A DNA stretch of 64,000 nt from an uncultured Bacteroidales bacterium (GTDB lineage Bacteria; Bacteroidota; Bacteroidia; Bacteroidales; Bacteroidaceae). The stretch covers positions 310,001 to 374,000 of the forward strand of contig CAMAFY010000001.1 of assembly GCA_945833885.1 (NCBI GenBank), read 5' to 3'. Shown in pieces: positions 2,457 through 50,906 of the stretch. A program made the translations under genes and the position numbers. A model generated the notes under the pieces. That model saw only the letters and a program-made list of their open reading frames with translations. It ran no database searches and was not told the DNA's origin. Positions within the stretch are counted from its first letter, which is position 1. Every line of letters starts with the position of its first letter.

Positions 2457-2537
2457 AAACCACGGAAGTTTACAATGAAAAGTTCCGATGTTTGCGATGA
2501 AAAGTTCCGATGTTATCATTATAAAATGCGGCACTTT
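2457..2537. repeat. 22-bp-period palindromic array, copy 1 (4 units)
   Basis: This lies in the 772-bp gap between convergent genes ending at 2044 and 2817. Four copies of a 15-bp core like AAAGTnCGGnACTTT have their central CGG or CCG at 2463, 2485, 2507 and 2529, exactly 22 bp apart. Units 2 and 3 are nearly identical (AAAGTTCCGATGTT). Orientations are CGG, CCG, CCG, CGG. Apart from two terminators, the rest of the gap (2123-2456 and 2538-2760) shows no convincing gene. Confidence 0.85.
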
Positions 2538-2760
2538 TTCGGACACTTTCAAAACTCCTTGAAAACACAGGCAAATAAACGTTTCCTTTATGTGCGGATA
2601 TAAGATTGAAACACGTGAGAAAACACATTGATGCCGTATGTGATATTAGTGCGGTTTTATTTTGAAACACTGCATTTTCAGCCTATATCGAATGGATAAA
2701 TCCCGCCTTTTTGATATTGTTTTATTACACAAATGAAGGGAATGCCTTCGGGATTGATGA

Positions 2761-2801
2761 AAAAAGGGGACAGCAAAGGCAGAAAATCCTTTGCAGTCCC
2801 C
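2761..2801 (-). terminator. Terminator of the S8 peptidase operon
   Basis: Read on the minus strand, GGGGACtGCAAAGG pairs with CCTTTGCtGTCCCC (arms 2788-2801 and 2766-2779) and is followed by a run of Ts. It lies 16 bp past the stop codon of the peptidase gene. Confidence 0.88.
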
Positions 2802-2816
2802 AGCAATGATACCATA

Positions 2817-4970
2817 TTAAAGCACTACCTTGAAGCGTGCTTTCCGAATTCCCTGTACGAGGGAAACGATGTATGTTCCTGAATTCAGGTGTTCGAGGCC
2901 AACGTTTTCATCAGTTCCTGGTCGTAGATCAAGTGTCAAAGGCCGGTGGGAACGACGTCCCGAGGCATCAAATATCTCCAACATTGCCACACCCTCAGTA
3001 TCGGACACAATGTGCAATTTGCAGCCGTGAACCGACAAATTAAACGAAGGAAGCGAAGGTTGGGCAATACCACTTTCGCCCGACATCTTCACGCAGGCGT
3101 CCAATCCGGCATAAGCATCGAGTTTTCCTGCTCCCCACTGCTGAGTATCTTGCGTGAAATCATCGGTGCGTCCTGTCTTTTCCATCAGGGAATGAAGGTC
3201 TTCGGGCGAAAGACGGGGATAGGCTTCAAGCCATGCTGCCACAACGCCTGCGGTTAAAGGCGCAGCCATGGATGTACCTTGCATATAGCCATAATAGTCG
3301 GTATGCCCGTCAAATCCCTCATGTGTTTCGGCAATGAACGAAGTTGATGTGTCGTCGTGAGCAGAAAAAGCAGAAAGTATGAAGCATCCTGGGGCACAAA
3401 TATCGGGTTTTGTGCGGCCGTCGAGCGTTGGACCGTAACTGGAAAACGAACATAAGTCATACAATGTCTCATCGAGCGTACCGGTAGTGTTGAGAGTGGT
3501 GTACTCATTACGGGTAGTATATGCACCGACTGTCAGTATGCGTTTGCCCGTGCCTCCGATTTCCGCGATGGTGGATTCGTCGTCCGGACCTGTAAAGCCT
3601 TCGATTTCGCGCGATTCAAGTCCAAGTTTCGTATTGTCTGCCCATATATTTACGCGACCATAAAACAGGGGTGTTACGGTCAAGGCTATCGCATAATTCA
3701 TACGGATGTTCGTAACATCCGATGTGATAAGCATGTGAGGCCTACCATTTAGCGGTGAAATTTCCGAGGTGACGTTCAGGGTTCCCGTCACATAACGTCC
3801 GAGACTGACCTCTTGAACACCGTCCGCCCCATCGAGAACTACGCTTTCAGCATCCTGTTTGTTGAAGATACTGTACGATGAAAGTTTGACTTCATAAACG
3901 CTGCCTACGTCGCCCCAGATCTCAATGCTCCCACCTTTGTTGACGGTTGATGGGGAAGTCTTGTAGGCGACAAAGGTGCGGAGAGGCTCGTCTTCGGCAC
4001 TTTTGAATGTCTTTTCCACATGGAATTTGTCTGCTCGATGGTTACCGGCCGCTCCGACCATCAGCAATCCCTCACCCTGGAGTTCGTCAGTCAGGCAATC
4101 GAATGTGGATGTTCCGTCATGCGGTCCCTCATGATTACCCAGGCTAAGATTGACCACGCATGGCTTGTTCACGCTTTTTGCGTAGTCAAAGATATAGGCT
4201 ACACCATTGGCAATATCGGCATTTGTGGAATTTTCAAGGTCAAGTGCTACGAGAACGATGTCGGCATCTGGAGCCGCTCCTCGGAACTTTCCGTCATTCC
4301 ACGCGTCAGAACCCGCTGCCAATGCCGCCACGTGTGTGCCATGAGAGTTGTCTTCGCGGTCAGCCTTGGCCTTCTCTATGTGTTCAGGTGTGGTGAATTC
4401 GAGCCCGTATCCAAATTTTTCCGGAGGATTGCACCCCTCAAATGAAGAACTTCCTTGTTCCCAAACGCGACGGATGCGGAGTTCTCCGTTTTCGGGATTG
4501 CGGAAGGCACTGTGAAGATAGTCGAATCCGGCATCCACTATCCCGACAACAACATCGCGACCTGTGTAAGATTGCGTGAATCCATCACCATTCAGTCCTC
4601 TATCAGCCCCAGTTTCCTGCCGGGCGATATCGATCATTGTTTGAGGAGCATCGCTGTTTTCCACATAACGTACGCCATTCATACCGACAAGACGCTGCAA
4701 GCCGGCAGAGGAAATGCGGAGTGTGCCCCGCTTTGATGTGAGGGGAATGACTTGGAATCCAGCCTCCTTTAGTGTTTCCCACGAACATTTGTCATTGTCG
4801 ATGGTGACAAAAACCGTCATCGTATCGGCAGGTGCCACACGGAATGCCGTGCTATGCCCCGACCTGGTCTGTTGGATGAGACGTGGCGACAACACATTTT
4901 GTGGCAATGTCTGTGAGAAAAGTGTTCCTGAGACGGCAATAGCCAGAAAGAGAACCAATGTTTTTTTCAT
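2817..4970 (-). CDS. Secreted S8 subtilisin-like serine peptidase with T9SS tail
   Basis: A 717-residue exported peptidase of the S8 (subtilase) family. Started at the ATG at 4970, it begins with a signal peptide (MKKTLVLFLAIAVSG); an in-frame ATG at 4979 adds three residues. The catalytic triad is visible: Asp146 (GIVDAGFD), His210 (SHGTHVA) and Ser567 (GTSMAAP). A long insert (about residues 315-470) separates the His and Ser blocks, as in many large subtilases, and may hold a beta domain. The last 80 residues end in a T9SS-type sorting domain (SGTYIVSLVQG... KVVL). The gene follows the Omp28-like gene after a 19-bp gap, so the two are probably one operon. It could act on surface or host proteins; the substrate is unknown. 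Confidence 0.92.
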   Translation of the reverse strand: MKKTLVLFLAIAVSGTLFSQTLPQNVLSPRLIQQTRSGHSTAFRVAPADTMTVFVTIDNDKCSWETLKEAGFQVIPLTSKRGTLRISSAGLQRLVGMNGVRYVENSDAPQTMIDIARQETGADRGLNGDGFTQSYTGRDVVVGIVDAGFDYLHSAFRNPENGELRIRRVWEQGSSSFEGCNPPEKFGYGLEFTTPEHIEKAKADREDNSHGTHVAALAAGSDAWNDGKFRGAAPDADIVLVALDLENSTNADIANGVAYIFDYAKSVNKPCVVNLSLGNHEGPHDGTSTFDCLTDELQGEGLLMVGAAGNHRADKFHVEKTFKSAEDEPLRTFVAYKTSPSTVNKGGSIEIWGDVGSVYEVKLSSYSIFNKQDAESVVLDGADGVQEVSLGRYVTGTLNVTSEISPLNGRPHMLITSDVTNIRMNYAIALTVTPLFYGRVNIWADNTKLGLESREIEGFTGPDDESTIAEIGGTGKRILTVGAYTTRNEYTTLNTTGTLDETLYDLCSFSSYGPTLDGRTKPDICAPGCFILSAFSAHDDTSTSFIAETHEGFDGHTDYYGYMQGTSMAAPLTAGVVAAWLEAYPRLSPEDLHSLMEKTGRTDDFTQDTQQWGAGKLDAYAGLDACVKMSGESGIAQPSLPSFNLSVHGCKLHIVSDTEGVAMLEIFDASGRRSHRPLTLDLRPGTDENVGLEHLNSGTYIVSLVQGIRKARFKVVL

Positions 4971-4989
4971 GGAAATCATGTACGAGGGA

Positions 4990-6900
4990 TTATATCTTCA
5001 CCTTTCGGCTGATGGTTTTTCCGTTAATCGTGGCTGAAACAATGTACATTCCCGCCTGCAAACGATGGTCGATTGCATAGCGGCGCCCCTGCGCATCGTG
5101 GATGCGAAGACCGGAGATTCCAGTTCCAGAAACGCTGATGCGTCCATCACGGACGTGTACTTTGAAGTCTTCCGTATCGTCGGTTATGGGGGACTGTATG
5201 GATGTTTGGAATCCGTTTTGCGTATACGACTCACCTAATCTCACGGCCTGACAGTTGTAAACGCGGTTTCCTGTGTTTGAAGAAAGATTGTTTTCGGAGA
5301 TATAGGCCACAAGCATCATGTTATCAGGCACTACATTATGTGAAAGCATGCTCTGTGCATTCTCATATTGACTGCCGGCAAGATTCTCTTCAGTCCAATA
5401 AGTCGAACGGATTTCCTCTGGAAGTGTAAACTCATGTTCCCAAGTTGTTGTCTCGCCAGGAGTGAATTTCGCGGCAAGTCCCCAGGCATTTCCAGTCAGA
5501 CATCCACGGAAGACATGACGATGTATGTAATTTGCGCCACCATTGGTCTGGTATGCCGTAATGCTGTCCTGAACAAGCATGACGTTGATGACGGCCTCTC
5601 CATTGGGCAATTCGCGGTGAGGAAGAAAATCTGCCGTAACTGTACAAAGACGGGTTGCGGAATCGTAGGTCGATGACAGGCGGATGCTGGCATAAGGCTC
5701 ATTGTTTTCCACGTAATCGAAAGTGTTCTGCATCTTGGATTCTGTAATATCCATTACGGGTGCCGAACTTACCAATGGAGCAGCCGTACGATTGAACATC
5801 ACAGCAGGGGCATAAGTGCTGCAACCGTCGTAGAAATAGAGGTAATTGACGTCCTCTTCCATAGTGAAAACGTCGGGCATATAACCTGAATGATGGGAAA
5901 CCTCCACACATGGTGTCTGACGAGTAGACAGAAATTTCACGAGCGAAGAGTGACCTCCTGGGCATGCGCTACAAGCCTGTCCCGTAAATCCTTCCACAAG
6001 AATGTTGCGTTCCATATCGGAAGGATAGAAGAAAATCGAAGTTTGAAGCGTGTTGTCTGAGGGGTCAGAATCGGAATTTTGGGCATTGATATTCTCAACA
6101 CTTACCTTCAATTCCGTCTCACCTTCGGCACTTGCTACGTATTCTGGGAGTTCAATGTTAATAGTCTGACACTGGCCGAGTGCCACATTACTATAGGAAA
6201 AACGTTCCGTCTGCTCACCCAAAGTCAGGAGGATGTCAAATGAATCAACGGCTTTCGTACCGAAGTTCATCAAGTTCATGGAAAAGGAATATGCATCTCC
6301 GCTCTTATAATAACCGCTATATTTCTGACCAATCATCATAACATCGCAGAAAACAGGGTCGTGGTCAAGCACGACTTGTATGTTGGCTGCACCCGTCCCC
6401 ATTCCATAAACATCTGTCCAAGTTCCGTTATTGAGGGCAAAACTGCAGTTCTCGAGTTCTGTATTGAAGTCAGAACTGAGAAGATTATACGATGCCGCCA
6501 TGGTTTCTGCCTCGTATCCGATGAAGAGTTCTGGCTCTTCCCCGGTGATGACATACGGTATTTCGAGGGTATAAGTATAGAGTTTCAGGGCTTTCTCTAT
6601 CGTCACCTCAAGAGATTGTATGGGATTTTCCTCCAAAGATGTGGAAATGAAAGCATACGCCTTATTGTCTTTTGTCATACGACTCCCAAAGGCTATATTG
6701 ATGGCATTGATGCTACAACCTTTCAATGCCTGCAGTTTCTCGTGGCTGAGACGGATGGCTTGACCTTGGCTGGTGGTGTTTCCAAGGTGAAAGACTTTGG
6801 TACGCTCTATACTTCCGTTGCTATAACCCACAGTAACCTCTTCTGCCATGAGACTGAAAGACAGAAGACAAAAAGTAAGAAATGTGAAAAACCTTTGCAT
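4990..6900 (-). CDS. Omp28-related secreted protein with T9SS tail
   Basis: A 636-residue exported protein with a signal peptide (about residues 1-19). Its middle carries an Omp28-like thioredoxin-fold region marked by VEGFTGQACSACPGGH, where the CSAC pair resembles a thiol-disulfide active site. The N-terminal half looks like beta-sandwich adhesin modules. The C-terminus (GLRIHDAQGRRY ... GMYIVSA ... SRKVKI) fits the T9SS type A sorting domain, so surface attachment or release is expected. It is the first gene of an operon with the S8 peptidase. The known family is outer-membrane or surface proteins such as P. gingivalis Omp28; a redox or adhesin role here is inference. Confidence 0.85.
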   Translation of the reverse strand: MQRFFTFLTFCLLSFSLMAEEVTVGYSNGSIERTKVFHLGNTTSQGQAIRLSHEKLQALKGCSINAINIAFGSRMTKDNKAYAFISTSLEENPIQSLEVTIEKALKLYTYTLEIPYVITGEEPELFIGYEAETMAASYNLLSSDFNTELENCSFALNNGTWTDVYGMGTGAANIQVVLDHDPVFCDVMMIGQKYSGYYKSGDAYSFSMNLMNFGTKAVDSFDILLTLGEQTERFSYSNVALGQCQTINIELPEYVASAEGETELKVSVENINAQNSDSDPSDNTLQTSIFFYPSDMERNILVEGFTGQACSACPGGHSSLVKFLSTRQTPCVEVSHHSGYMPDVFTMEEDVNYLYFYDGCSTYAPAVMFNRTAAPLVSSAPVMDITESKMQNTFDYVENNEPYASIRLSSTYDSATRLCTVTADFLPHRELPNGEAVINVMLVQDSITAYQTNGGANYIHRHVFRGCLTGNAWGLAAKFTPGETTTWEHEFTLPEEIRSTYWTEENLAGSQYENAQSMLSHNVVPDNMMLVAYISENNLSSNTGNRVYNCQAVRLGESYTQNGFQTSIQSPITDDTEDFKVHVRDGRISVSGTGISGLRIHDAQGRRYAIDHRLQAGMYIVSATINGKTISRKVKI

Positions 6901-6922
6901 AATATTTCATTATTTGTGTCTG

Positions 6923-6930
6923 CAAATATA
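6923..6930 (-). promoter_or_regulatory. -7 box for the Omp28/S8 operon (TATATTTG)
   Basis: On the minus strand this is an exact TAnnTTTG match, 22 bp upstream of the Omp28-like start codon. No TTTG is seen at the expected -33 distance. Confidence 0.5.
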
Positions 6931-6980
6931 GTCATTATATACTGTTTACTAAGAATTTATACGTTTTTCCTCTAATAAAT

Positions 6981-7011
6981 TTTGTCCATTTGGACGTTTA
7001 TTGTACTTTTG
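6981..7011 (+). promoter_or_regulatory. Full Bacteroidetes promoter (TTTG-N19-TAnnTTTG)
   Basis: TTTG at 6981-6984 and TACTTTTG at 7004-7011 are separated by exactly 19 bp, the textbook spacing for the Bacteroidetes housekeeping sigma factor. Transcription would begin near 7018 and give a 5' leader of about 150 nt before the gene at 7167. Confidence 0.8.
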
Positions 7012-7166
7012 CCACGGCAAAATGGAATAATTTTCTCGATTTTCCACATTGCATTCTCAGGACTTATTTGGTGATTTGTATAGAAAAGACTTAAAAAACT
7101 ATAAGATATCAATATGACACATGATGCTGATTATTTGATGCTTAATCACTATAATATTATAAATAT

Positions 7167-9773
7167 ATGAGAAAAAATCTACTCCGTTTGCTGACATTGT
7201 TGTCAGTAATTATCGGTGGCACTGCTGTGACATGGGCAGAAAATGTGGTCTATGCCCTCATTCCCTCCTCAAGTATGGGAACGAAAGTCACATCATTTGA
7301 CTATGATGCAGTGAACACAACCGACAAACTTACCATCGCTGCTACGGGCGAAGAACTCACAGGTGTGGATGGTGTGTACTGTTCTGTCAATGTTGGGAAC
7401 AAATACTACGCCTTTATCAATAACGAATACGCTACCGGCAGTAGTACAATGACCCAACTTGTGACCATCAACTTCACCACAGACAATGTAACTGTTGTGA
7501 ACGACAAGTCCTATGGCTGGGGAAATCCTGGATACATGCCTTGTGGTATGGCGTACGACAAGCAGACCAATATGGTCTATGTCATTGAAAAAGGATATGA
7601 CGAGAGCGACAATGCGGCTACCTTCCTTTATAGTCTTGACCTCTCGAATGGCGCATTGACTGAGATAAACAACTACACCGGCACATACGAAGCCATTACA
7701 AGTGATGGTAAAGGTGGCTTCTATTTGGTGAAAAACCATACGGTTGGCTATTGGCCTTACCCGGAACTTTTTCACATGGAGATGTTTGCCATTGACGAAG
7801 AGCCCTGCATTCCGAATGAGACGGTTTCGTGCTCTTCCAACAGCAACAACAGTTTCTGCATCTCAGAAGACGGCACATTTATCGTCTATACATCCGGAAC
7901 AAGTGTGTTTGAGTTCAACCTTGAGGCAAAGACCTTTGAGAAAAAGGGCACATTGAGCAAGTCCATAGCCGGTCTTACCTTCAAGTGTTCTACAGAAGAT
8001 GGCGATGCTGGTGAGATAAGTGGTGGTGATGATGATCAGCCCAAACGCGTTCTGCTGAGTAAAACGTGGTATGGCGATGCTATGGGAACGGAAAATACCG
8101 ACGTAGATATGAAGAAGGAAATCTATTTCTACGGCTATGATGGTAAGATAAATGCCACAGGTAACTATGGCCGCAACTATGGTTCGTCTGAAAGCAACGG
8201 AGGAAACAGTAACGATCCTGGGTGGTATGTGCCCATGTATTACACAAAGAACGTTCGCGATGACCGTGGAAACATTGTGAAGACCACACGTTATCAGTAC
8301 GGACAGTACGATTTCGGAGACATGAGCATGAAGGTTTCCCGCGAATATTCCTACGAATACGATGAGCAGAACCGCCTTATTAAGGATAGTATTGAGAACT
8401 ATAAGACGGTATACCTCTACGATGAGAATAACAATATTGTGAAGGATACGGTGTATTATTCCTCTAATGGTGGCTATATGTGCGACCATCAGTACTTTGA
8501 ATTCATTGCTGTCAACAAACCAACCATGGTGGTTTCCAATGGAAAGTGGGACGCTGACAAGTACACAGCGTTCATAGAATACGACGAAAACGGCAACAAA
8601 ACCAGTGAAACCCGTTGCAAAGTAATCGAAGGAGATTTTGGACTTACCGAATATGTTCCTACGAAGTACGAGGGTTGGACATACGAGGGTGATGTGCTCG
8701 TTCTCTATGAAATGGACCATTTCGACAGCAAAACGGGTGAACCGGTGCCTTACATTAAGATAGAATATGAGGCTGTCGACGGTGATTCCAACAAACTTCT
8801 TGCCAAGGAATATTCCTATAATTCCTCCACTGACAAGTGGTACGAACAAGGACTTCCCTGCCTCTATACGTACGGATATTTCGATGATATGCTCGATATG
8901 ACCAGAATCGAGTTTATGGCAGAAAAGAGTGATGTGGCAGTAAATGATGTGGATCTTGTATGGAGTGTCCCCATGTTGGCATATTCAGCACCTGCCAGTG
9001 AATTCATCGTATACCGTAATGGCGAGGCCATTGATACGCTTGGTATTATGGAATGTCTGGACTTCGATTCTTCTTACTGCAAATATACTGACCGTTTTGT
9101 CAAGAGCGGTAAGCATGACTACTTTGTTCTTCCCCGCTTCGGACAGGGTGAAATCATTGACGAAACCGATATTGTCTGGACTCATTACTACGCCAGCGAC
9201 ATCGTAGAAGTGGATGCTACCATCGAACTTCCCGCAGTAAGCAATCTTGAACTTACGGGTGCACGTGTAGTTCGCGAGGGAGAAGGTCTTGATGTCTACG
9301 ACATTACTTATGGAACGATTAAGTGGACTAATCCTGAAGGAATGGAGGATCTGGAATTCATCAGCAATGATTTGATGCTTGATAACTTCCAATTAGCAGA
9401 AGCCTCAACGGCAGAAACCACCACAACATCGCTTGAAGGCGTCTTTGAGAACGATGAAACCGATGTCTATGTTTTGACCCGCTATGCTTATGGTAAGGCT
9501 GTTTCCGAGCATATTACAGTACGTTTGACAGACCTTACCGAAATCGTCGGCATCAATGGCGCAACAACTGATGGCGAATTCTTGTTCAATATGAACGACC
9601 GTCAAATTTTGGTGGGTGAGAATGCCAGCGCTACGGTATTCGATGTCGCAGGTTCACGTGTGGCAAAGGCGTCAGCCGGAAGCATTGATCTTGGAAATCT
9701 TACCGCAGGTAACTACATTCTTATGGTAGAAAAAGACGGAAAAGTCAAGGGTTATAAGTTCCAAGTGAAGTAA
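7167..9773 (+). CDS. Large secreted protein with YD-like repeats and T9SS tail
   Basis: An 868-residue exported protein. A signal peptide (about residues 1-24) is followed by a beta-rich N-terminal half that looks like a propeller (YSLDLSNGALTEI). A segment around residues 300-560 is rich in tyrosine and acidic residues and has short repeated phrases such as YEYDEQNRLIKD and YLYDENNNIVKD, recalling RHS/YD repeats. The C-terminal 80 residues (GNLTAGNYILMVEKDGK ... YKFQVK) fit a T9SS sorting domain. A full promoter lies upstream and a terminator downstream, so it is probably monocistronic. No enzyme motif is seen; a surface structural or adhesive role is a guess. Confidence 0.82.
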   Translation: MRKNLLRLLTLLSVIIGGTAVTWAENVVYALIPSSSMGTKVTSFDYDAVNTTDKLTIAATGEELTGVDGVYCSVNVGNKYYAFINNEYATGSSTMTQLVTINFTTDNVTVVNDKSYGWGNPGYMPCGMAYDKQTNMVYVIEKGYDESDNAATFLYSLDLSNGALTEINNYTGTYEAITSDGKGGFYLVKNHTVGYWPYPELFHMEMFAIDEEPCIPNETVSCSSNSNNSFCISEDGTFIVYTSGTSVFEFNLEAKTFEKKGTLSKSIAGLTFKCSTEDGDAGEISGGDDDQPKRVLLSKTWYGDAMGTENTDVDMKKEIYFYGYDGKINATGNYGRNYGSSESNGGNSNDPGWYVPMYYTKNVRDDRGNIVKTTRYQYGQYDFGDMSMKVSREYSYEYDEQNRLIKDSIENYKTVYLYDENNNIVKDTVYYSSNGGYMCDHQYFEFIAVNKPTMVVSNGKWDADKYTAFIEYDENGNKTSETRCKVIEGDFGLTEYVPTKYEGWTYEGDVLVLYEMDHFDSKTGEPVPYIKIEYEAVDGDSNKLLAKEYSYNSSTDKWYEQGLPCLYTYGYFDDMLDMTRIEFMAEKSDVAVNDVDLVWSVPMLAYSAPASEFIVYRNGEAIDTLGIMECLDFDSSYCKYTDRFVKSGKHDYFVLPRFGQGEIIDETDIVWTHYYASDIVEVDATIELPAVSNLELTGARVVREGEGLDVYDITYGTIKWTNPEGMEDLEFISNDLMLDNFQLAEASTAETTTTSLEGVFENDETDVYVLTRYAYGKAVSEHITVRLTDLTEIVGINGATTDGEFLFNMNDRQILVGENASATVFDVAGSRVAKASAGSIDLGNLTAGNYILMVEKDGKVKGYKFQVK

Positions 9774-9794
9774 AACAACAACTGTTTATATATC

Positions 9795-9846
9795 AATCCC
9801 TCCGAATACAGTCATGGAAGGGCTGTTTTTCGGAGGGATTTGTTTA
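9795..9846 (+). terminator. Terminator after the YD-like secreted protein
   Basis: AATCCCTCCGAA (9795-9806) pairs with TTCGGAGGGATT (9829-9840), with an inner ACAG/CTGT pairing, and is followed by TTGTTT. It begins 22 bp past the stop codon. Confidence 0.85.
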
Positions 9847-10053
9847 ATCCTTTGCATTTCAGGATTTGAACTTTGAATTAGTTTTTTCAATTCTTCACAT
9901 AAACAATCAACGTTTCTTTGTTAAACGACATTCAAACTTTTGCAAAACATTTCTTGTGCAGCATCTCATAGGATTCCTAAGATAGATGTTGTGACAGACT
10001 GAATGTGATGATTGGAAAAGGGAAATAAAACAGGACATTTTAACAACTTATAT

Positions 10054-13497: not shown

Positions 13498-13578
13498 AAA
13501 CGCCGGCATTTTATGTTGAGAAGTACAGATGTTTTGAAGGCAAAGTGCGGAACTTTGCATACAAAAGTTCCGCACTTT
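13498..13578. repeat. 22-bp-period palindromic array, copy 2 (4 units)
   Basis: This lies in the 540-bp gap between convergent genes ending at 13212 and 13752. Central triplets sit at 13504 (CGG), 13526 (CAG), 13548 (CGG) and 13570 (CCG), exactly 22 bp apart. Units 3 and 4 are perfect inverted copies (AAAGTGCGGAACTTT and AAAGTTCCGCACTTT) followed by six Ts, so this pair alone could fold as a terminator. I see no gene in the rest of the gap (13312-13497 and 13579-13751). Confidence 0.85.
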
Positions 13579-18789: not shown

Positions 18790-18973
18790 CATAGGATGAG
18801 TCAAATGTATCTCTAAGAGATTAATCGGTCACGCTTTCGAATCTGCGGAACTTCATGGGTAAGCGACTCACAATCGAGCCTAAGAATTGCCGCCTTTGAT
18901 TCTTTGGTTTTCCGAAGCATGAGTTTTTCTCATCCAAAAACATCACCCTTTTTCTCCTCCTTTTCTCACTATC

Positions 18974-24588: not shown

Positions 24589-24669
24589 AAAGTACGGAAC
24601 TTTTGCTTGCAAAATACGGAACTTTTCATGTTAAACTTCCGTACTTTCCATCAAGTTTCTCCGTACTTT
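24589..24669. repeat. 22-bp-period palindromic array, copy 3 (4 units)
   Basis: This lies in the 371-bp gap between the TPR gene and the GH20 gene, both plus strand. Central triplets sit at 24595 (CGG), 24617 (CGG), 24639 (CCG) and 24661 (CCG), exactly 22 bp apart, so the array as a whole is an inverted repeat of two plus two units. A degenerate fifth unit may precede it near 24573. No gene is seen in the rest of the gap. Confidence 0.85.
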
Positions 24670-34839: not shown

Positions 34840-34920
34840 AAAGTGCGGAACTTTACGATAAAAAGTTCGGGACTTTGTGGCATGAAATGCGGCATTTTCT
34901 GCTTTAAAGTGCGGAACTTT
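34840..34920. repeat. 22-bp-period palindromic array, copy 4 (4 units)
   Basis: This lies in the 568-bp gap between maf and fdtA (both minus strand). Central triplets sit at 34846, 34868, 34890 and 34912, all CGG on the plus strand and exactly 22 bp apart. The first and last units share the perfect core AAAGTGCGGAACTTT. The last unit runs into a T tract. The remainder of the gap (34451-34839 and 34921-35018) is AT-rich with no gene seen. Confidence 0.85.
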
Positions 34921-41682: not shown

Positions 41683-41785
41683 AAAAGTACGGAAGTTCTC
41701 GATGTAAAGTACGGATGTTATCGATGCAAAGTGCGGATGTTTTTGTCACAAACATCCGTACTTTCCTTCTTAAAATGCCGGTGTT
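41683..41785. repeat. 22-bp-period palindromic array, copy 5 (5 units)
   Basis: This lies between convergent genes ending at 41096 and 41878. Central triplets sit at 41689 (CGG), 41711 (CGG), 41733 (CGG), 41755 (CCG) and 41777 (CCG), exactly 22 bp apart. It is the longest array in the window. Units 3 and 4 are inverted and can pair (CGGATGTTT with AAACATCCG). Confidence 0.85.
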
Positions 41786-41835
41786 TATAGAACAATGTTC
41801 TTTTATAATGTTATTTTATGTTCAGCATAAAATAA

Positions 41836-41877
41836 AAGTAGGTCTTGTAAACAGTTGCCTGCTACAAGACCTACTTA
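41836..41877 (-). terminator. Terminator after the second GT2 gene
   Basis: AAGTAGGTCTTGTA pairs with TACAAGACCTACTT (14 bp) around a 13-nt loop. Read on the minus strand it is followed by a T-rich tract. It begins right at the stop of the gene ending at 41878. Confidence 0.85.
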
Positions 41878-42771: not shown

Positions 42772-42882
42772 GACACAGGCTATTGTATAATCTTGTATAT
42801 AGGAAATCCACGATGAATACGCGAAATTTCCCTTCATTAAGATGGAATACAAGAACGTTCGTAACGTAAATCACGGAGGATT

Positions 42883-45800
42883 TTATCCGTTGATCTTGTA
42901 TTCCATACCCTTAGAAGTGATGAAATCGAGGACTTGTCTCGTAGGATTGATCTTCATCACTGGGGTTGTTAGATGCAGACGAGTGTTTTGCGTAGGGTCG
43001 CAAAGCGTGAATTCCAAATCGCAACCACCCTCGTTAGGTGCTTCGTCATGGGAATGTTGCAACGGGTTCGCTTGATGGGTATGGTTCTGCCCCTCGTTTT
43101 TCGCGGTTTCTGAAGCGTTGGTTTCCTCAATCGCTGTCAGCAATTCGTTGATATCGGTTTCGTCAATTTCATTGATATTCACGACAATATTCACCGATTT
43201 TATCCTTGAAGATCTGACATCTGCAAGGAATTCCACTTTGGAAATATTGAGTTCTGGCAAGGGGTCTCCCCATTTACGAGGTTGCACATTGGCCGTAATG
43301 AACAGTGATGCTCCAACGAGGAAGTAGCCTTTGAATTGTGCCCATGCCTCTCCGAACAACGCAATCTGCCCTTTTCCGCTGAAGTCTTCCAGCGTAACAC
43401 GTCCAAAAGGAACTTCGCGCTTGGTGAAACGCTCTTCAACTGCCGTGACAATACCACCAAGATATACTACCTGGTTCATGAAAGGATTCAGGTCTTCAAT
43501 CTTCTCCATCTGCAAATTGCATACGTAATCAAGGACAAGTTTGAAGTCATCAAGAGGGTGTCCGGAGATGTAGATGGAAATCAGTTCACGCTCCTTATTG
43601 AGACGTTCAAGGTCACTCCATGTATTATAGATTTGGGAAGGCGCAGGTTTTTTAACTTCAATAGAGTCGAAATCCCCAAAAAGCAAGCCTTGTGATTCCT
43701 GTTTTTCCGTTTGATAGCGTTGACCATAGTTGACAAGTATCTCGAGAAATGACGTTCCGCGCTCGTCAGGAACAAAATACTGTTCACGACAGATTTCGGT
43801 AAAACTGTCGAAAGCACCGGCAAGAACAAGACATTCCAGGCTCTTTCTGTTACAGGTATTGAGGTTTACTCGTTCAAAGAAGTCGTACACATCCTTGAAT
43901 TTGCCGTTCTTTACCCGCTCTTCAATGATGGTTCGAACAGCATTTTCACCAACACCCTTTATCCCGGCAAGGCCAAAGCGGATGTTACCCTCGGCATTCA
44001 CGCTGAACTTTGACAAGGATTCGTTGACGTCAGGGCTGAGTGTCTTAATGCCCATAGAGCGGCATTCCTCCATCAGTTTCTGAACTTCGGTAATCTTATC
44101 ACCGCGGCATGAAAGCAGGGCTGCCATATATTCAGCGGGATAATGCGCTTTCAGATATGCCGTTTGATAGGCAACCCAACTGTAACATGCGGCATGCGAC
44201 TTGTTGAAAGCATAGGAAGCGAACTTCTCCCAATCGCCCCAAATGCGCTCCAGGATTTGAGGATCGTGACCGTTTCGTGTGCCGCCTTCTATGAATTTCG
44301 GCTTCATTTTCGCTACGATGTCCGCCTTTTTCTTACCCATAGCCTTGCGCAGAGCATCGCTTTCACCGCGTGTAAAGTCTGCAAGTTGTCGGGAAAGAAG
44401 CATCACTTGTTCCTGATAAACCGTAATGCCATACGTGTCTTTCAGGTATTTTTCCATGCAGGGGATATCGTAAGATATCTCTTCCCTTCCGTTCTTTCGT
44501 GCGATAAACGAAGGGATCTTATCCATCGGTCCGGGTCGATATAGCGCATTCATGGCAATAAGATCCTCAAAGACTGTAGGATGAAGTTCACGCAGATACT
44601 TTCGCATACCAGGGGATTCAAATTGGAAAGTTCCCACAGTTTGTCCTGCCTGATACAGATTATAAGTCAGTTCATCATCGATGGGAATGTTGTCAAGGTC
44701 CACATCAATACCCCTGGATATCTTCACATTCTTTACGGCTTCCTTCTGCTCTGAAAGAGTTTTCAGGCCAAGAAAGTCCATTTTGATGAGCCCCGTTGAT
44801 TCTATGACATGACCATCGTATTGCGTCACGGCGGTCTTTATGTCCGGAAAATCGGGGTCTGCAGCCGTACTTACCGGAACATGCTCACTGATAGGGTCAC
44901 GACAGATAATGAATCCACAGGCATGAATACCGATATTACGGACTGTTCCTTCAAGCATTCGCGCATATTTGATTGTATTCCGCATGCGAGGATCATTGGA
45001 AGCCTCGGCCATTTGCAGTTCTTTTGTGACCTTTATAATGTTCGTCAGGTTGGATTTCATTCCATCCGGCAAACGATCGGGTATGGCTTTGCATAATGCG
45101 TTGGTGGTATCAAGGGGAACTTTCTCCACGCGAGCAACATCCTTGATGGAGTTCTTCGCAGCCATGGTACCGTAGGTAATGATATGAGCGCAGTTTTCTA
45201 CACCATATTTATTCATTACCCATTGCAAAACCCTGCCGCGTCCTTCGTCATCGAAGTCCGTATCTATATCAGGAAGAGAAATACGATCGGGGTTCAGGAA
45301 GCGCTCGAACAGCAAATCGTACTTTAAAGGATCAATCTTCGTGATGCCAAGACAATAGGCCACCACACTTCCTGCGGCAGAACCGCGTCCAGGACCTACC
45401 CAAACACCCAGTTCCTGCCGTGCGGAATTGATAAAGTCCTGCACAATGAGGAAGTATCCGGGGAAACCCATTGTCTTCATGATGTGAAGTTCGAAACGGA
45501 TTCTGTCGCATACTTCACCGGAAAGTGGCGCTCCGTAAATGCGTTCTGCACCTTCGTAGGCAAGTTTTGCCAAATAATCGGCTTCGAATTTAATGCGATA
45601 GATTTTCTCGAATCCGCCTAACTTTTCGATTTTTGCACGTCCCTCATCCTCCGGAAGGGGATTTTCTCCGTTTTCATCGCTGGTGAATTCTCTAAAAAGG
45701 TCGTCCTCGCTGAATTTTTCGCGCCATTCCTCTTCGGTTCCAAAAGACTCTGGAATGGGAAAGAACGGCATAATGGGGGGACTTTCTATATCATAAACTT

Positions 45801-46680
45801 CGACTTTATCGAGAATTTCAAGCGTATTCGTCATCGTTTCGGGCATATCTCCAAAGACACTTTCCATCTCTGCCCGTGTTTTGAACCACTCTTGTTTGGA
45901 GTAACGCATACGATTGGGGTCATCCAGTTCCTTACCCGTCGAGAGACAGAGTAGGTGATCATGGGCCTCTGCATTCTCCTCGTTGACAAAATGGCTGTCG
46001 TTGGTGCAGATAAGTTTAATGTTATAGCGGCGAGCAAGATCTATAAGATGGGGCTCCACACTTTTCTGCAACTGAAATGTTTCGCGGTTTGCAAGGATAG
46101 ACGGGTCCTTAACTTCATGACGTTGCAGTTCAAGATAAAAATCTTCACCCCAGATATTCTTGAACCATTCCACACGTTCTTCAGCAGCCTTCATATCACC
46201 TGCCGCAATATGCTTGGGAATTTCACCACCAAGACAGGCAGAAGATATGATAAGTCCCTCATGAAAACGCTCAAGATCGGCAAAGTCCGTGCGAGGATGC
46301 ATATAAAAACCGTCGACCCATGAGCGGCTGACAAGGCGAATGAGGTTATGATATCCGACTTCATTCTTCGCAAGTACCACGAGATGCCATCCTCCTTTGT
46401 CCTGCTTTTGCTCCATAAGTTTCTTATCGCCTCGACGGGCTACGTACATTTCGCAGCCAAATATCGGTTTGAAAGGTTCCAGACCTTCCTTCTTCCTGCC
46501 TTTATTTACCTTTTGACAATAGTCAAAGAATTCTTTAATTCCAAACATATTGCCGTGGTCCGTAATGGCCATGCCCTTCATTCCATCTTTAACAGCCTTA
46601 TCTACCAACTGATTGATGGGACTTTGGCCGTCGAGAAGGGAGTAATAAGTATGAACGTGCAGATGTACAAAATCAAGCAT
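42883..46680 (-). CDS. dnaE: DNA polymerase III subunit alpha
   Basis: A 1265-residue replicative DNA polymerase of the DnaE type. The N-terminal PHP domain opens with HLHVHTYYSLLDG (about residues 6-18) and has TDHGN at 40-44. Catalytic aspartates lie in PDIDTDFDD (Asp473 and Asp475). The finger and thumb regions (KKADIVAKM, FNKSHAACYSWVAYQTAYLKA) and a C-terminal OB-fold region (NQVVYLGGIVTAVEERFTK) are present. It is longer than E. coli DnaE (1160). The 413-bp gap downstream of the porin gene and upstream of this one (46681-47093) contains no gene I can support. Confidence 0.97.
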   Translation of the reverse strand: MLDFVHLHVHTYYSLLDGQSPINQLVDKAVKDGMKGMAITDHGNMFGIKEFFDYCQKVNKGRKKEGLEPFKPIFGCEMYVARRGDKKLMEQKQDKGGWHLVVLAKNEVGYHNLIRLVSRSWVDGFYMHPRTDFADLERFHEGLIISSACLGGEIPKHIAAGDMKAAEERVEWFKNIWGEDFYLELQRHEVKDPSILANRETFQLQKSVEPHLIDLARRYNIKLICTNDSHFVNEENAEAHDHLLCLSTGKELDDPNRMRYSKQEWFKTRAEMESVFGDMPETMTNTLEILDKVEVYDIESPPIMPFFPIPESFGTEEEWREKFSEDDLFREFTSDENGENPLPEDEGRAKIEKLGGFEKIYRIKFEADYLAKLAYEGAERIYGAPLSGEVCDRIRFELHIMKTMGFPGYFLIVQDFINSARQELGVWVGPGRGSAAGSVVAYCLGITKIDPLKYDLLFERFLNPDRISLPDIDTDFDDEGRGRVLQWVMNKYGVENCAHIITYGTMAAKNSIKDVARVEKVPLDTTNALCKAIPDRLPDGMKSNLTNIIKVTKELQMAEASNDPRMRNTIKYARMLEGTVRNIGIHACGFIICRDPISEHVPVSTAADPDFPDIKTAVTQYDGHVIESTGLIKMDFLGLKTLSEQKEAVKNVKISRGIDVDLDNIPIDDELTYNLYQAGQTVGTFQFESPGMRKYLRELHPTVFEDLIAMNALYRPGPMDKIPSFIARKNGREEISYDIPCMEKYLKDTYGITVYQEQVMLLSRQLADFTRGESDALRKAMGKKKADIVAKMKPKFIEGGTRNGHDPQILERIWGDWEKFASYAFNKSHAACYSWVAYQTAYLKAHYPAEYMAALLSCRGDKITEVQKLMEECRSMGIKTLSPDVNESLSKFSVNAEGNIRFGLAGIKGVGENAVRTIIEERVKNGKFKDVYDFFERVNLNTCNRKSLECLVLAGAFDSFTEICREQYFVPDERGTSFLEILVNYGQRYQTEKQESQGLLFGDFDSIEVKKPAPSQIYNTWSDLERLNKERELISIYISGHPLDDFKLVLDYVCNLQMEKIEDLNPFMNQVVYLGGIVTAVEERFTKREVPFGRVTLEDFSGKGQIALFGEAWAQFKGYFLVGASLFITANVQPRKWGDPLPELNISKVEFLADVRSSRIKSVNIVVNINEIDETDINELLTAIEETNASETAKNEGQNHTHQANPLQHSHDEAPNEGGCDLEFTLCDPTQNTRLHLTTPVMKINPTRQVLDFITSKGMEYKING

Positions 46681-47093
46681 AACGAATATCGATTAAGGGA
46701 CAGAGGGTGTTTTTCTACGATGAAATCGCCTTTTTGATTCTTTTTTACTGGAAAAAGATGTATCGAAGCGGGATATATGAAAGTTTACTTCTGAACTTTT
46801 AGAAGATAGAAACTATCAAAACGGGGATGGGATACAGCCATCAGGGGGAAATGATATGGTTCAAACCGAGAAGACGCAAGCACAAAACAGGAAACGGAAA
46901 GAACGTTTAGACATAAATCCATCCTCCTTATTTATATAATGTGTCATCACTTTTCTGCTGAAAAGAGGGGGATTATGTGTTAATTCCCCGTATGACGATG
47001 AAAGAATGGATGAAAAAAAATCAAACGATCAACATGCTTCTTACAAACAGAAAACGTCGATGAAATCATGGTTATTTGCATCCATCAAGTCAA

Positions 47094-49319
47094 TCAGTTG
47101 AAGAAATTCCAACTTATACCGAAACGGAACACCCGTTGATTTGTAGGATAATGCGGAGCCATGAAGTAATTTCCAGAACCACAGTTGACATGTCCCATCA
47201 TAACATAGAACCTGCAGTTCTTAAGATGGAAGTTTGCATACACATTCACCCATGGATAATTACCTATTTTCTGACGCCATCCTTCATCTTGCACAGCATA
47301 TCCACCAATCATCGGCGAATAAGCCGGAGCATAATATTTGGTAAAATAGAGCACGTCTGCGCCGATTTCAGTACGGAGAACCTTGGCTACTTTGAAATGA
47401 AGATAAAGATTTGACCACGCATTAAACAAAGGAAGCGGGAGAACTTTATCATCAGATGTTTTTTGAAGTGTCAATCTATTCTCCCAATTAAGCGGCCCAA
47501 GGACAAAATCCTGGTGCAATGCCAACTGCACTAATTGGATGTTATGTACTGCCTGCATGGGGGTTACTCCATAGAGCATGGTAGATTGCACGGCATCAGT
47601 CTCACCTCCTTCTGCGGTAGTTCCTTGCTTTTGAATCTGTTGCCAGAAAGTATGATTCTGAATGGTTTCAAACGATGCTGTCAACCGCGTTTTTCTCCAT
47701 GCCAATTCGCCCTCTATTCGGGCTCGGAACACTTTGGACAAGTCTTTGTCCCACCACGCCGTTGAACTGTGAAAATGGCGATAATAGTACGAAGGTTCCT
47801 CATTACGGACAAAGCCTCGTGCTACAATTCTCAGGCTATCCCTGCGTATTGGGATGTTGAATGTGATGTTTCCCTCCACATTGAATTCACCCCAGTCCGA
47901 TCCGGTGGTGCGCATTTCGCCTAAAACATCGTAGTGAAACACCTTGCCTCCTTGCCTCATTAACTGGGCACCCAGCGTAATGTAGTTATAATGTTCGGAC
48001 TGTTGCTTCAAATCCTTGTCTGGCAGGCTGAAACTTGTGAACTCATGTTTCGCAAAAAGCCGCATTCCCGTCTTTACCCACCGTTTGAACCCTTCGCTCA
48101 TCTCAATGGCCAGCGTGTTTTGAACCGAAACGTATCGCGTCATATCATTGATACTGTCACCCGGATTGGCAAGGAATTGTTCGGCATAAAAGCCATTCGC
48201 GCCTTGATGATCAATGTAGTATCTACGGTTATGCTCCACTTTCATTGTATGGATAAACGCTGCAACCGGAATAAAAAACCGAGTCATTGTGGAGTCCAAT
48301 TCTACAGTAACAGGTCCTGAAGCGGCACTATCAGCGGGCAAAGTCGAAGTTCCGGCTATGGCTACGGAGTCCATAGAACCAGAAAGGACTATTTTCCCTT
48401 CTGCATCGCGCCATTGATAATACCCGAGATTGTAGCGATGGGTGAGGAAAAGGCGATTGATTTTCAGTCGGTTGTAAGCATTGTCCATACGAACCGGCAT
48501 ATCGGCAGGGGCATACTTCGTAGAATAATACTCAGGATGCAGGATAAAGTTGTCGTCTGAAAGGCCGCCATTTTCTGCGTTTTTCGTACGGTCCATCACA
48601 TAAGCGCTGTGCATCTGATAGCGTTCTCCGCGATAACTGCCGAAAATCTTAGCCGCAATACTCGATTGTTGCTGTTGTTCGAAATAGCCACGCCCATAAA
48701 GATAGTCCACCTTAAAGCCCATTCCGGCGCGTTTGCCGGCATTTGTGGCAAAAAGTGCGCGAAGTCGGTCATCACCATTTGTCTTATTACCCTGAGACAT
48801 ATAAGAAAGATTGGTAATAGGCGACTTTGTGTTTGTGTAAGCACAATCGTTTACAGACTCAAGAACATAACTATAAGGCTTTTCAAACACGAATTGCTGC
48901 CCTATCATCGCATCTTGGTTTCCATTATAGAGGCGTGCTATCCGTGGAGCACCAAGATTTCCCGTTGTGTTGTACTCTCCAAACTTGCCTTCTGTGCGGT
49001 TATCGTTCTGGAAAAGATGGGGGACGGTGTCGGGAACTGTCGGGGTTATGGTGCCAAACCGTTCATCGATGGTCCATGTAGTAAGGCCCCGCGGGACATA
49101 TTCGGCAGAATCTTTTTGTTGAGAGCGCGCCCCCCTATCGGCGTTATTACCACCCATTCGAGGATTTTGTCCCCGTGTAAAAGTCGCAATCAGCAGGAGA
49201 CACATCAAGAATGCCATGCGAAGACCGTTCCGCATGGCAAAAGACAGGAATCGTGTTAAACGGTTTTTTTTACCGGACGACAAGATATCAATAATGTGGA
49301 TATTCGAAATTCTTTTCAT
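47094..49319 (-). CDS. Putative beta-barrel porin
   Basis: A 741-residue exported outer-membrane protein of the Bacteroidetes putative-porin type. A hydrophobic signal segment lies at about residues 35-47; the 28 residues before it make the start uncertain, and the ATG at 49235 gives a more normal signal peptide. The mature part alternates short aromatic strands and turns, and it ends in Phe-Asn (FRFGISWNFFN), close to the terminal aromatic typical of outer-membrane barrels. It follows dapA by 67 bp, so the two may be cotranscribed. The substrate is unknown. Confidence 0.82.
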   Translation of the reverse strand: MKRISNIHIIDILSSGKKNRLTRFLSFAMRNGLRMAFLMCLLLIATFTRGQNPRMGGNNADRGARSQQKDSAEYVPRGLTTWTIDERFGTITPTVPDTVPHLFQNDNRTEGKFGEYNTTGNLGAPRIARLYNGNQDAMIGQQFVFEKPYSYVLESVNDCAYTNTKSPITNLSYMSQGNKTNGDDRLRALFATNAGKRAGMGFKVDYLYGRGYFEQQQQSSIAAKIFGSYRGERYQMHSAYVMDRTKNAENGGLSDDNFILHPEYYSTKYAPADMPVRMDNAYNRLKINRLFLTHRYNLGYYQWRDAEGKIVLSGSMDSVAIAGTSTLPADSAASGPVTVELDSTMTRFFIPVAAFIHTMKVEHNRRYYIDHQGANGFYAEQFLANPGDSINDMTRYVSVQNTLAIEMSEGFKRWVKTGMRLFAKHEFTSFSLPDKDLKQQSEHYNYITLGAQLMRQGGKVFHYDVLGEMRTTGSDWGEFNVEGNITFNIPIRRDSLRIVARGFVRNEEPSYYYRHFHSSTAWWDKDLSKVFRARIEGELAWRKTRLTASFETIQNHTFWQQIQKQGTTAEGGETDAVQSTMLYGVTPMQAVHNIQLVQLALHQDFVLGPLNWENRLTLQKTSDDKVLPLPLFNAWSNLYLHFKVAKVLRTEIGADVLYFTKYYAPAYSPMIGGYAVQDEGWRQKIGNYPWVNVYANFHLKNCRFYVMMGHVNCGSGNYFMAPHYPTNQRVFRFGISWNFFN

Positions 49320-49386
49320 GTGAAGTTGGAAAAAGGAATGTCATCCTTTGACGACTACTCCGTCATAGCGGCCTTACCGACACGTA

Positions 49387-50307
49387 TCAACAATCGTTGT
49401 ACTTAGCGTCTTGAGCATTCACTCCCAGTACCTGCAAGGCTGTGACGATAGCCTTGTTCGTTTTTTCACTCACAGGCACCAGCGGTAATCTAAGGACATT
49501 GCTGCACATCCCACGATAATGCATCATACATTTCACACCAGCAGGGTTACCTTCGGCAAAGGCAAGACGGAAAATTTCCGCCATACTACGGTGAATGTCA
49601 AGTGCAGCATCGTAACGCCCTTCAAGCGCAGCGTGGATCAACTCCCCCATTTCTTCGGCAAAGGCGTTTCCTGTTGCCGAAATCAAGCCGTCGCCACCGA
49701 GGAGAGCCGTTTCGAGTGCAATGGCATCATCACCGCTGATTACCCCAAAGCCATCAGGGGCATCTGCAAGAATCTGCTCAACTTGCTGAAGATTGCCACT
49801 GGCCTCCTTGATTGCTACAATGTCTTCAAAGTCATTTGCCAGACGAACGACCGTTTCTGGAAGAAGGTTTACGCCAGTTCGACCCGGGATATTATAGAGA
49901 ACGATTGGAAGTGGCGAGGCATCTGCAACCGCAGCAAAGTGCCGATAGAGTCCTTCCTGCGAGGGTTTGTTGTAATAAGGCGCGACAACGAGCACACCAT
50001 CAAAGCCATCAAGGTTGGCTGTTGCAAGATATTCGCATAACTGGCGCGTATTGTTGGAACCGCATCCCAGCAAAAGAGGAACCCGTCCGTCCACAGTTTC
50101 CACAAAGGTGTCCATTACCATTTCCTTTTCCTCTTCGCTAAGCGTGGGCGTTTCTGCGGTAGTTCCAAGTACACACAAATAGTCTACACATCCCTGATTG
50201 AGAAGATATAGTATGTGTTCACGGAGTGCGAAGAAATCAATGTTGCCCTCTGGGGTAAAGGGGGTGACAACTGCCACGCCATAACCTTTGAATATGTTTG
50301 TTCTCAT
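49387..50307 (-). CDS. dapA: 4-hydroxy-tetrahydrodipicolinate synthase
   Basis: A 306-residue cytoplasmic enzyme of the lysine and diaminopimelate pathway that condenses pyruvate and aspartate semialdehyde. I chose the ATG at 50307 (MRTNIFKGYGVAVVTPF); the in-frame ATG at 50391 adds 28 residues and would fall inside the leader hairpin. The Schiff-base Lys167 (VAIKEASG), Tyr138 (YNIPGRTG) and Thr49-Thr50 (LGTTAETPTL) are present. A hairpin with a T tract lies in the 5' leader, so attenuation is possible. The porin gene follows. Confidence 0.96.
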   Translation of the reverse strand: MRTNIFKGYGVAVVTPFTPEGNIDFFALREHILYLLNQGCVDYLCVLGTTAETPTLSEEEKEMVMDTFVETVDGRVPLLLGCGSNNTRQLCEYLATANLDGFDGVLVVAPYYNKPSQEGLYRHFAAVADASPLPIVLYNIPGRTGVNLLPETVVRLANDFEDIVAIKEASGNLQQVEQILADAPDGFGVISGDDAIALETALLGGDGLISATGNAFAEEMGELIHAALEGRYDAALDIHRSMAEIFRLAFAEGNPAGVKCMMHYRGMCSNVLRLPLVPVSEKTNKAIVTALQVLGVNAQDAKYNDC

Positions 50308-50339
50308 CTTGTTTGTGATTGTAATTTTTTCGGACCTTG

Positions 50340-50394
50340 TGACAAAAAAACTTTGTATGAGAGGTGCTAATTTTGGTAACCCCTCCCTCATACA
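50340..50394 (-). promoter_or_regulatory. Attenuator-like hairpin in the dapA leader
   Basis: On the minus strand GTATGAGgGAGG pairs with CCTCtCATAC (arms about 50383-50394 and 50355-50364), followed by AAAG and seven Ts (50342-50348). It lies between the promoter box at 50435-50442 and the dapA start at 50307. This is what a transcription attenuator would look like. I do not recognise a known riboswitch here. Confidence 0.55.
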
Positions 50395-50434
50395 TCCAAT
50401 GTCGTTCTTAGAGCCGTCGGACCTTTTATGTCTA

Positions 50435-50467
50435 CAAAATTACGACTTTTTTCGCGGACTTCGCAAA
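50435..50467 (-). promoter_or_regulatory. Promoter for dapA (TTTG-N21-TAATTTTG)
   Basis: On the minus strand TTTG (50464-50467) and TAATTTTG (50435-50442) are 21 bp apart, close to the normal spacing. Transcription would start near 50428 and give a leader of about 120 nt. Confidence 0.7.
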
Positions 50468-50528
50468 CAAATGAGGCAAAAAAAGCCTAATGTTCCGCAT
50501 TAGCACCTCATAATCTTTTCTCGACATC

Positions 50529-50560
50529 AAAAAAAGGGTATTATATGCCCCACCCTTTTT
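50529..50560. terminator. Bidirectional terminator without an adjacent gene
   Basis: AAAAAGGGT pairs with ACCCTTTTT around a 13-nt loop, with A and T runs on both sides. It lies in the 1110-bp gap between dapA and prs. It may insulate the dapA promoter, or end a non-coding transcript from the 51.3-kb region. Confidence 0.65.
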
Positions 50561-50825
50561 GTCAATCTATCGAGGATTCACAACACGCTCATTTCACACC
50601 TGATTCCCTACTTCAGAGTGTTTTGTAATATCATTTACGGGCTTTAAGGGAAAACACACTGAAATTTTATCTGCTTAATTTCGCATCAGGATGTGTTTTT
50701 CTTGTCATCTTAATGAGATTTTTATGGAAAAACCTTAATAAAAACTGCATATCTCAAACGAATGACGGATACCCGGAATGAGAAACGCCCCCCCCTCGAT
50801 TTCACGAATGAACACTCCATGCTGG

Positions 50826-50906
50826 AAAGTACGGAACTTTTGTCATCAAAATGCGGAGGAATCGATGGGAAAGTACGGAAGTTTTACTTGTAAAGCACGG
50901 CACTTT
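50826..50906. repeat. 22-bp-period palindromic array, copy 6 (4 units)
   Basis: This lies in the divergent 1110-bp gap between dapA and prs, about 500 bp from each. Central triplets sit at 50832, 50854, 50876 and 50898, all CGG and exactly 22 bp apart. Unit 2 is the most degenerate. The stretch 50907-51296 has no gene I can support. Confidence 0.85.

Follow-up and report, generated by a model that had tools for sequence, protein, structure and literature searches.

The 64-kb window analysed here (positions 310,001 to 374,000 of contig CAMAFY010000001.1, from an uncultured Bacteroidales bacterium) contains six intergenic arrays of a 15-bp dyad unit (Table 1), which are flanked by unrelated genes for, among others, a subtilase, a formyltransferase, a GH20 protein, a Maf protein and a cyclomaltodextrinase. 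Together they comprise 25 units and 19 unit-to-unit steps, and each step is 22 bp when the arrays are read in register. The centre of the unit is CGG or CCG in 24 of the 25 cases, the exception being CAG in the unit at 13520, and the unit at 50848 lacks its right half. An initial annotation of this DNA had recognised all six arrays and their 22-bp step, and needs correction only in the coordinates of the fifth array, given as 41683-41785, and in the CGG/CCG centre, which was attributed to every unit. The starts of the arrays are separated by 11.0, 11.1, 10.3, 6.8 and 9.1 kb, an even spacing that is visible already in the six coordinates of that annotation, though it was unremarked there. Two lone strong matches to the 15-bp unit are located outside the arrays, at 18840 and 35192, and are possible seeds or relics. 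The 1066-residue open reading frame (ORF) beside the second array shows an fn3 match just below the cut-off, and none of the Rfam families matches the window at the gathering score.

Table 1. Arrays of the 15-bp unit in the 64-kb window (> and <, orientation of successive units) and examples of a separate class of tandem repeats on sampled contigs of the same genome.
Feature	Position	Units	Orientation	Context
Array 1	2457..2537	four 15-bp dyad units, 22-bp step	> < < >	
Array 2	13498..13578	four	> > > <	convergent gap; 1066-aa ORF / formyltransferase gene
Array 3	24589..24669	four	> > < <	TPR protein gene / GH20 gene
Array 4	34840..34920	four	all >	FdtA-like gene / maf gene
Array 5	41684..41786	five	> > > < <	convergent gap; cyclomaltodextrinase gene / glycosyltransferase gene
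Array 6	50826..50906	four, unit 2 decayed	all >	divergent gap
Tandem repeat	C1:107353-107483			
Tandem repeat	C1:152629-152987			
Tandem repeat	C3:18686-18857			
Tandem repeat	C5:34703-34842			

The genome to which the window belongs (G000; 3.11 Mb in 89 contigs) was sampled over 824 kb (27%) on five contigs, and 74 arrays, defined as three or more units, were found in this sample. Most of them contain four units (46 arrays) or five (14), followed by six and three (5 each), seven (3) and eight (1). Over these arrays, 251 of 254 steps are 22 bp, a count obtained with an array caller that favours this step. The distances between pairs of hits to the motif profile, recorded over 374 kb of the window's contig, are free of this bias: 112 pairs are 22 bp apart, compared with one or two at each of 20, 21, 23 and 24 bp, and further peaks are present at 44, 66 and 88 bp. 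The initial annotation had proposed a genome-wide search for the 22-bp step, and its strong enrichment in these pairs excludes chance. The exact core AAAGTNCGGNACTTT occurs 160 times in the genome and its reversed control not at all; with one mismatch allowed, the numbers are 527 and 8, in which a near-palindrome may count on both strands.

The 15-bp units of G000 reach an information content of 1.95 bits per position, compared with at most 0.24 bits in the 7-bp linkers. The earlier view that phase is kept rather than exact sequence is thus right about phase, but the cores are conserved too. The half-sites are of few kinds (AAAGT, AAACA, AAAAT and AAACC), and the unit profile has AAA and TTT ends without a tag of the GTAG or CGTC type. 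Units occur in both orientations, as initially described, and 181 of the 254 adjacent pairs share the same orientation. Local tandem duplication probably has a part in array formation, because linkers are more alike within an array (identity 0.41) than between arrays (0.29), but the arrays of G000 are not recent copies of one another.

Along the chromosome of G000, the arrays form a lattice. The 69 gaps between arrays on the five contigs have a mean of 10.8 kb and a coefficient of variation (CV) of 0.39, with a minimum of 3.0 kb and a maximum of 21.7 kb. A plain null, in which the same number of intergenic regions is drawn at random and weighted by length, gives a CV of 0.84 ± 0.09, and in 10,000 draws the evenness of G000 was never reached; a single gap of G000 is shorter than 4 kb, compared with 17.6 under the null. 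The null depends on gene calls that are crude, being the longest ORFs. When a 4-kb exclusion is added, the CV of the null is 0.57 ± 0.06, none of 1,500 draws is as regular and the maximum gap has a P of 0.002. Since this stricter null is still less regular than the arrays, both short and long gaps are deficient in G000. As a negative control, the ordinary tandem repeats of this genome, most of which have a 22-bp period, were assessed in the same way and proved to be clustered (CV 1.13).

Relatives were compared in a genus sample of 58 genomes (denoted by G-numbers) and in family and order samples with 398 and 392 genomes, respectively, besides G000. The exact core AAAGTNCGGNACTTT is present in three of the 58 genus genomes, namely G000 and, with one copy each, G014 and G039, and the two-unit pattern was detected at 49 places in G000, at one in the other family genomes and at none in the other order genomes. 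The core is almost private to the species of G000. G018 contains the cores TTTCAAGGCTTGAAA and ATTGCATAATNCAAT with a step of 21, G006 the core CAATAAGGAT with a centre step of 21, G010 cores of the ATAAACC- and CCTCAGAGG-type, G019 a TAACCCTAGGGTTA-type core with a step of 22, and further different cores are present in G014, G025 and others. The geometry in these sister species is the same as in G000, with dyad units, a step of 21 or 22, usually three to six units and both orientations. In the intergenic DNA of 25 species besides G000, a motif-free search, which requires no dyad, counted 54 repeats with a lag of 21 and 14 with a lag of 22, and no other lag between 14 and 35 exceeded 6. A repeat at lag 21 or 22 was detected in 19 of 26 species; a lone hit in a 20-kb sample is close to the background level.

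A contig scan that possibly omits near records of the window also found pairs of AAAGT cores in three further Bacteroidales assemblies, each with one or two such places. The metagenome-assembled genome JAISUE01, named as Bacteroidales, contains two four-unit AAAGT arrays (L032:381-461 and L033:7554-7634) in which all units are exact. These arrays suggest either transfer or a shared specificity of the binder.

Spacing in relatives was determined on a 240-kb contig of G018, picked for its array hits, and on a 180-kb contig of G006, picked without such knowledge. On the G018 contig, one core accounts for 8 arrays and the other for 13, and together these have a mean spacing of 11.2 kb and a CV of 0.35. 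Its null has a CV of 0.92 ± 0.18 and none of 20,000 draws is as even; against the 4-kb exclusion, P is 0.0013. Each core alone is less regular (CV 0.54 and 0.52), and the two unrelated cores interleave in a single lattice. All eight arrays of the one core consist of three units, and on this contig (C4; L101-L108, L222-L225) most three-unit arrays are flanked in phase by half-sites that resemble the other core. A single complex may thus recognise both cores. G006 contains 17 arrays with a mean spacing of 10.6 kb and a CV of 0.39; 11 of them have four units, and all 54 steps are compatible with a centre-to-centre distance of 21. The regularity in G006 has a P of 0.0007 against the plain null and of 0.033 against the 4-kb exclusion. 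The initial annotation had considered the arrays within one species; across relatives, the core is swapped while the geometry and, where measured, the spacing of about 11 kb persist.

In G000, the midpoints of only 11 of the 74 arrays lie inside an ORF of at least 150 residues, compared with about 60 expected, and the early statement that none lies in a gene thus holds in essence. Six of the 11 are found in ORFs of 266-1023 residues at a distance of 37-200 bp from the 5' end, which is expected if the start was called too far upstream, and the other five in ORFs of 159-206 residues. In G018, 6 of 21 midpoints fall inside an ORF of this minimum length (19.0 expected), none of them more than 108 bp from its 5' end; in G006, none of 17 does (14.8 expected). 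Array starts are present in only 10 of the 38 called gaps of at least 150 bp in G018, because over-extended ORFs partly cover others and some gaps are shorter. The 62 array-containing gaps of G000 comprise 30 co-directional, 20 convergent and 12 divergent ones (177, 54 and 47 among all gaps), with an ORF cut-off of 150 residues.

No shared gene family that could hint at the binder was noticed among the array neighbours that were annotated or compared. Thirteen reciprocal-best ortholog pairs flank arrays in both genomes, compared with 10.1 expected. The comparison of orthologous gaps, suggested in the initial annotation, could draw on just two conserved gaps, neither with an array in both genomes, and has almost no power. 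Array positions thus appear mostly not to be common between species, and their neighbours not clearly conserved.

The statistics of the G000 half-sites are better explained by protein dimers that bind duplex DNA than by an RNA hairpin, because coupling is found within the halves, at positions 4-5 and 11-12 of the unit, and little of it across the dyad. Matching across the dyad is below chance for 4:12 (z -2.7) and 5:11 (z -3.3) and neutral for the three outer pairs; a Watson-Crick excess exists only at 6:10 (z 3.9), with z between -3.3 and 0.9 for the other five pairs. A stem maintained by compensatory change, as in repetitive extragenic palindromic (REP) sequences, was rejected on these figures.

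The reading preferred here, to which we assign a probability of about one half, is that the arrays are docking sites of a multi-dimer DNA-binding protein that anchors chromosome domains of roughly 11 kb. Each array, about 80-105 bp long, would offer a platform to a sequence-specific, duplex-binding protein, which would bind as a dimer on each 15-bp dyad unit. Adjacent dimers would be located two helical turns apart on one face of the DNA, and three to six of them would form a single nucleoprotein complex. A protein that binds cooperatively to one DNA face, as proposed in the initial annotation, is thereby supported as the most likely partner. The platforms would be kept about 11 kb apart along the chromosome and would serve as architectural anchors, such as loop or topological-domain boundaries, rather than as switches of particular genes. 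Between species, arrays would turn over, changing in position and core and retaining unit geometry and spacing, presumably because the specificity of the binder drifts and the spacing is restored by array gain and loss. Because the spacing is constant and no strong preference for particular genes is seen, the arrays seem to serve the chromosome itself. Diffusible supercoils in the bacterial chromosome are stated to move in 10-kb domains in the cited part of one report (PMC3420936), and in combination with the even spacing and the lack of a strong gene preference this makes domain or loop anchoring the likeliest function. We infer protein binding, dimer assembly and domain function from nucleotide sequence.

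Several observations weigh against this reading. Seven of the 26 species sampled show no repeat at lag 21 or 22, six of them in samples of 60 kb or less, which indicates that the lattice is not essential to the genus. G045, G034 and G008 hold only one or two arrays, with differing cores, in 60-90 kb, a pattern that looks more like scattered repeat families than like a lattice. The dearth of long gaps in G006 is not significant (P 0.06-0.18), and the first G006 list of 16 arrays, which missed one that was recovered later by a motif scan, gave a CV of 0.60 with a P of 0.12. G000 and G006 have 6 array neighbours in common, compared with 2.4 expected, and convergent gaps are somewhat favoured in G000 (20 of 54, compared with 30 of 177 co-directional ones). 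Single strands of arrays fold better than their dinucleotide shuffles, with a mean z of -2.5 compared with -0.9 for nearby DNA, although such an excess is what a set of inverted near-palindromes yields. Finally, the search for the binding protein, which covered Lrp/AsnC proteins and neighbouring genes, yielded no binder.

Dyad sites of about 13-15 bp, close to the array unit in size, are also characteristic of the Lrp/AsnC (FFRP) family. Its arrays, including those of archaeal members, resemble the ones described here by a dyad spacing of two or three turns, several dimers and the wrapping of about 100 bp by one protein (PMC2995911, in part), and the two-turn spacing is found at 22 bp in G000 and at 21 bp in G006 and G018. 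They differ in that the known examples are located at control regions, and the cited part of the same source describes no chromosome-wide lattice (PMC2995911). The proteins themselves were rejected as binder. All 10 genomes searched encode such proteins, among them G004 and G003, in which arrays were not observed, and the recognition helices of the Lrp proteins compared resemble each other even where the cores of the species are unrelated, which makes these proteins unlikely to be the binder. This comparison comprises 13 usable sequences, including one of the two Lrp proteins of G000; among 17 loci, one lacked an ORF, and of the 16 aligned sequences those of G000 L211, G010 L207 and G019 L212 were in the wrong frame and ignored. 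The 3.2-kb locus of the Lrp-type gene contains an array of the genome's own core in G006 (L218:1781-1830) and in G010 (L207:2248-2310), which is about the chance level at one array per 11 kb and seven loci checked.

Among the alternatives, a mobile repeat of the MITE (miniature inverted-repeat transposable element) or REP type is unlikely, although several findings fit it. Such a repeat would burst in each lineage via a transposase, and insertion immunity or the purging of close copies would produce the even spacing. In agreement with this, the families are patchy, the AAAGT core is scattered over one or two places in three other assemblies, recent copying is suggested, on inspection by eye, by shared linkers in G006 and closely similar arrays in G010, and a scarcity of short gaps would be expected from immunity. 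REP sequences and their mosaic elements (BIME), with their RAYT transposases, also occur as hundreds of short, lineage-specific intergenic palindromes per genome, in regularly spaced clusters of mixed orientation and with a proposed chromosome-organising role (PMC2817692, PMC3733652, both in part). However, they are 20-40 bp long, carry a GTAG- or CGTC-type tag, show complementary stem changes and flank the RAYT genes, and the cited sections do not mention an even chromosomal lattice (PMC2817692, PMC3733652). The array units, in contrast, are 15 bp long, lack such a tag and do not covary at most dyad positions. The linkers of G000 are nearly unrelated between arrays even though the cores are kept, unlike decaying copies, the lattice of G018 is common to two unrelated cores, and long gaps are missing too in G000 and G018, beyond a 4-kb exclusion rule. 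REP/BIME elements with RAYT were rejected as a candidate, since Y1_Tnp has no match in the array-rich genomes G006 (99% complete) and G018 (77%), and the REP-like alternative of the initial annotation has accordingly lost ground. Y1_Tnp is matched in five of the seven genomes searched, G010 and G050 among them; in G000, where the flanks were checked against the genome's own core, the one partial match lies in a 3.2-kb locus without an AAAGT-type motif. Transposase searches covered the Y1 type and the Mu/Tn7 type, whose elements have multiple 22-bp transposase sites, and Mu_transpos_C matched none of seven genomes, with a control that was likewise silent (0 of 14 genomes).

Self-recognition during DNA transfer or uptake, by which array-bearing fragments would be preferred and even intervals and species dialects would arise, is improbable. 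DNA uptake sequences (DUS) and uptake signal sequences (USS) are single short sites, and phased multi-unit arrays are, to our knowledge, not a requirement of DNA uptake. Those of Neisseriaceae and Pasteurellaceae, as far as the cited sections show, also occur in hundreds of copies or more, in lineage dialects (PMC3630211) and with an even spacing reported by Karlin et al., as cited in PMC1939737. The core of G000 is likewise species-specific, overrepresented and evenly spread. The neisserial dialects, however, have a common CTG core (PMC3630211), whereas the array cores are fully unrelated, no phased arrays are described in these sections (PMC3630211, PMC1939737), and one of the sources rates uptake sequences less even than compaction requires (PMC1939737). 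An uptake signal thus fails to explain the phased multi-unit arrays or the unrelated cores. That the arrays are operators of a global transcription regulator is very improbable; dyad sites at two-turn spacing are typical for multi-dimer regulators (PMC2995911, in part), but the arrays occupy gaps of all three kinds beside unrelated genes, their neighbours mostly differ between species, and a regulon gives no reason for even spacing. The chance that they act after transcription, as RNA hairpins or terminators, is slighter still. It is true that z is below -2 in 55% of 148 array strands, compared with 20% of control strands, that some arrays give long hairpins with a z of -6 and that the 6:10 pair covaries. 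The five other dyad pairs, however, show no compensatory covariation, the predominance of equally oriented neighbours works against hairpins, the all-forward array at 50826 has a z of +0.69 on the + strand, divergent gaps are used and Rfam is silent on the window. The RNA element considered in the initial annotation has thus also become less plausible.

Other known systems correspond less well. The dyad sites parS and matS are bound by dimers and organise the chromosome, but they occur in few copies at origin or terminus regions, form no arrays and are conserved in sequence across wide groups. CRISPR arrays consist of near-identical repeats in a single orientation with unique spacers of about repeat length, and were rejected since the units here are 15 bp long, degenerate and in both orientations, with 7-bp linkers. 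A phage origin was rejected as well; the three viral records that match a 1.5-unit pattern share one identical single site and no array. No such arrays are described in the cited parts of reports on Porphyromonas gingivalis repeats (PMC5771137) and on RemA (PMC8481266), and no account of them was found in the open-access literature, a scope that excludes most subscription papers and preprints; this agrees with the initial statement that no named family is like this. Two or three features of the arrays recur in each of the REP/BIME elements, the Lrp arrays and the uptake sequences, but none of these, as far as the cited sections show, combines phased arrays, swapped cores and an even lattice.

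The sampled part of G000 contains further tandem repeats, among which the period 22 dominates. About 30 of them, mostly of 22-bp period, are located on contigs C1-C3 and C5 (examples in Table 1; loci L043, L045, L168 and L182), and their sequences are private, unrelated to the arrays and without dyad. They were rejected as further arrays, since a dyad is absent from their consensus units (mean z -0.01, n = 32) and they are clustered; a comparison set of 20 units from other species, hand-picked from earlier results and including some without a dyad, has a mean z of 2.07. The 20 proteins encoded beside these repeats are ordinary and varied, and the repeats are treated as a class of their own.

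Supercoil domains of about 10 kb have been inferred from experiments, and we know of no regular marker sequences for them. Whether the boundaries of domains in bacterial chromosomes are encoded in the sequence is an old question, for which an 11-kb lattice of defined sites would be a direct and testable candidate. Conserved in this lattice are the dyad units, the two-turn step, the usual three to six units and, in the three species measured, the spacing of about 11 kb; the core letters, the linkers and, largely, the neighbouring genes are not. It is tentatively proposed that the arrays represent a new class of chromosome element: as phased multi-site arrays in a lattice that spans the genome, they may divide the chromosome into domains, with an architecture that would be kept while recognition sequence and positions turn over. 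As part of the same tentative proposal, they may be likened to eukaryotic satellites and centromeres, in which architecture and spacing are kept and the letters replaced. If the lattice reading is true, G018 would be a lineage caught between two specificities, or one with two binders for the same job, and the exchange of recognition sequences within a fixed geometry would represent a bacterial instance of fast-evolving architectural DNA. Chromosome engineering in the genus could also employ the lattice as a ruler. The arrays thus suggest an undescribed mode of bacterial chromosome organisation.

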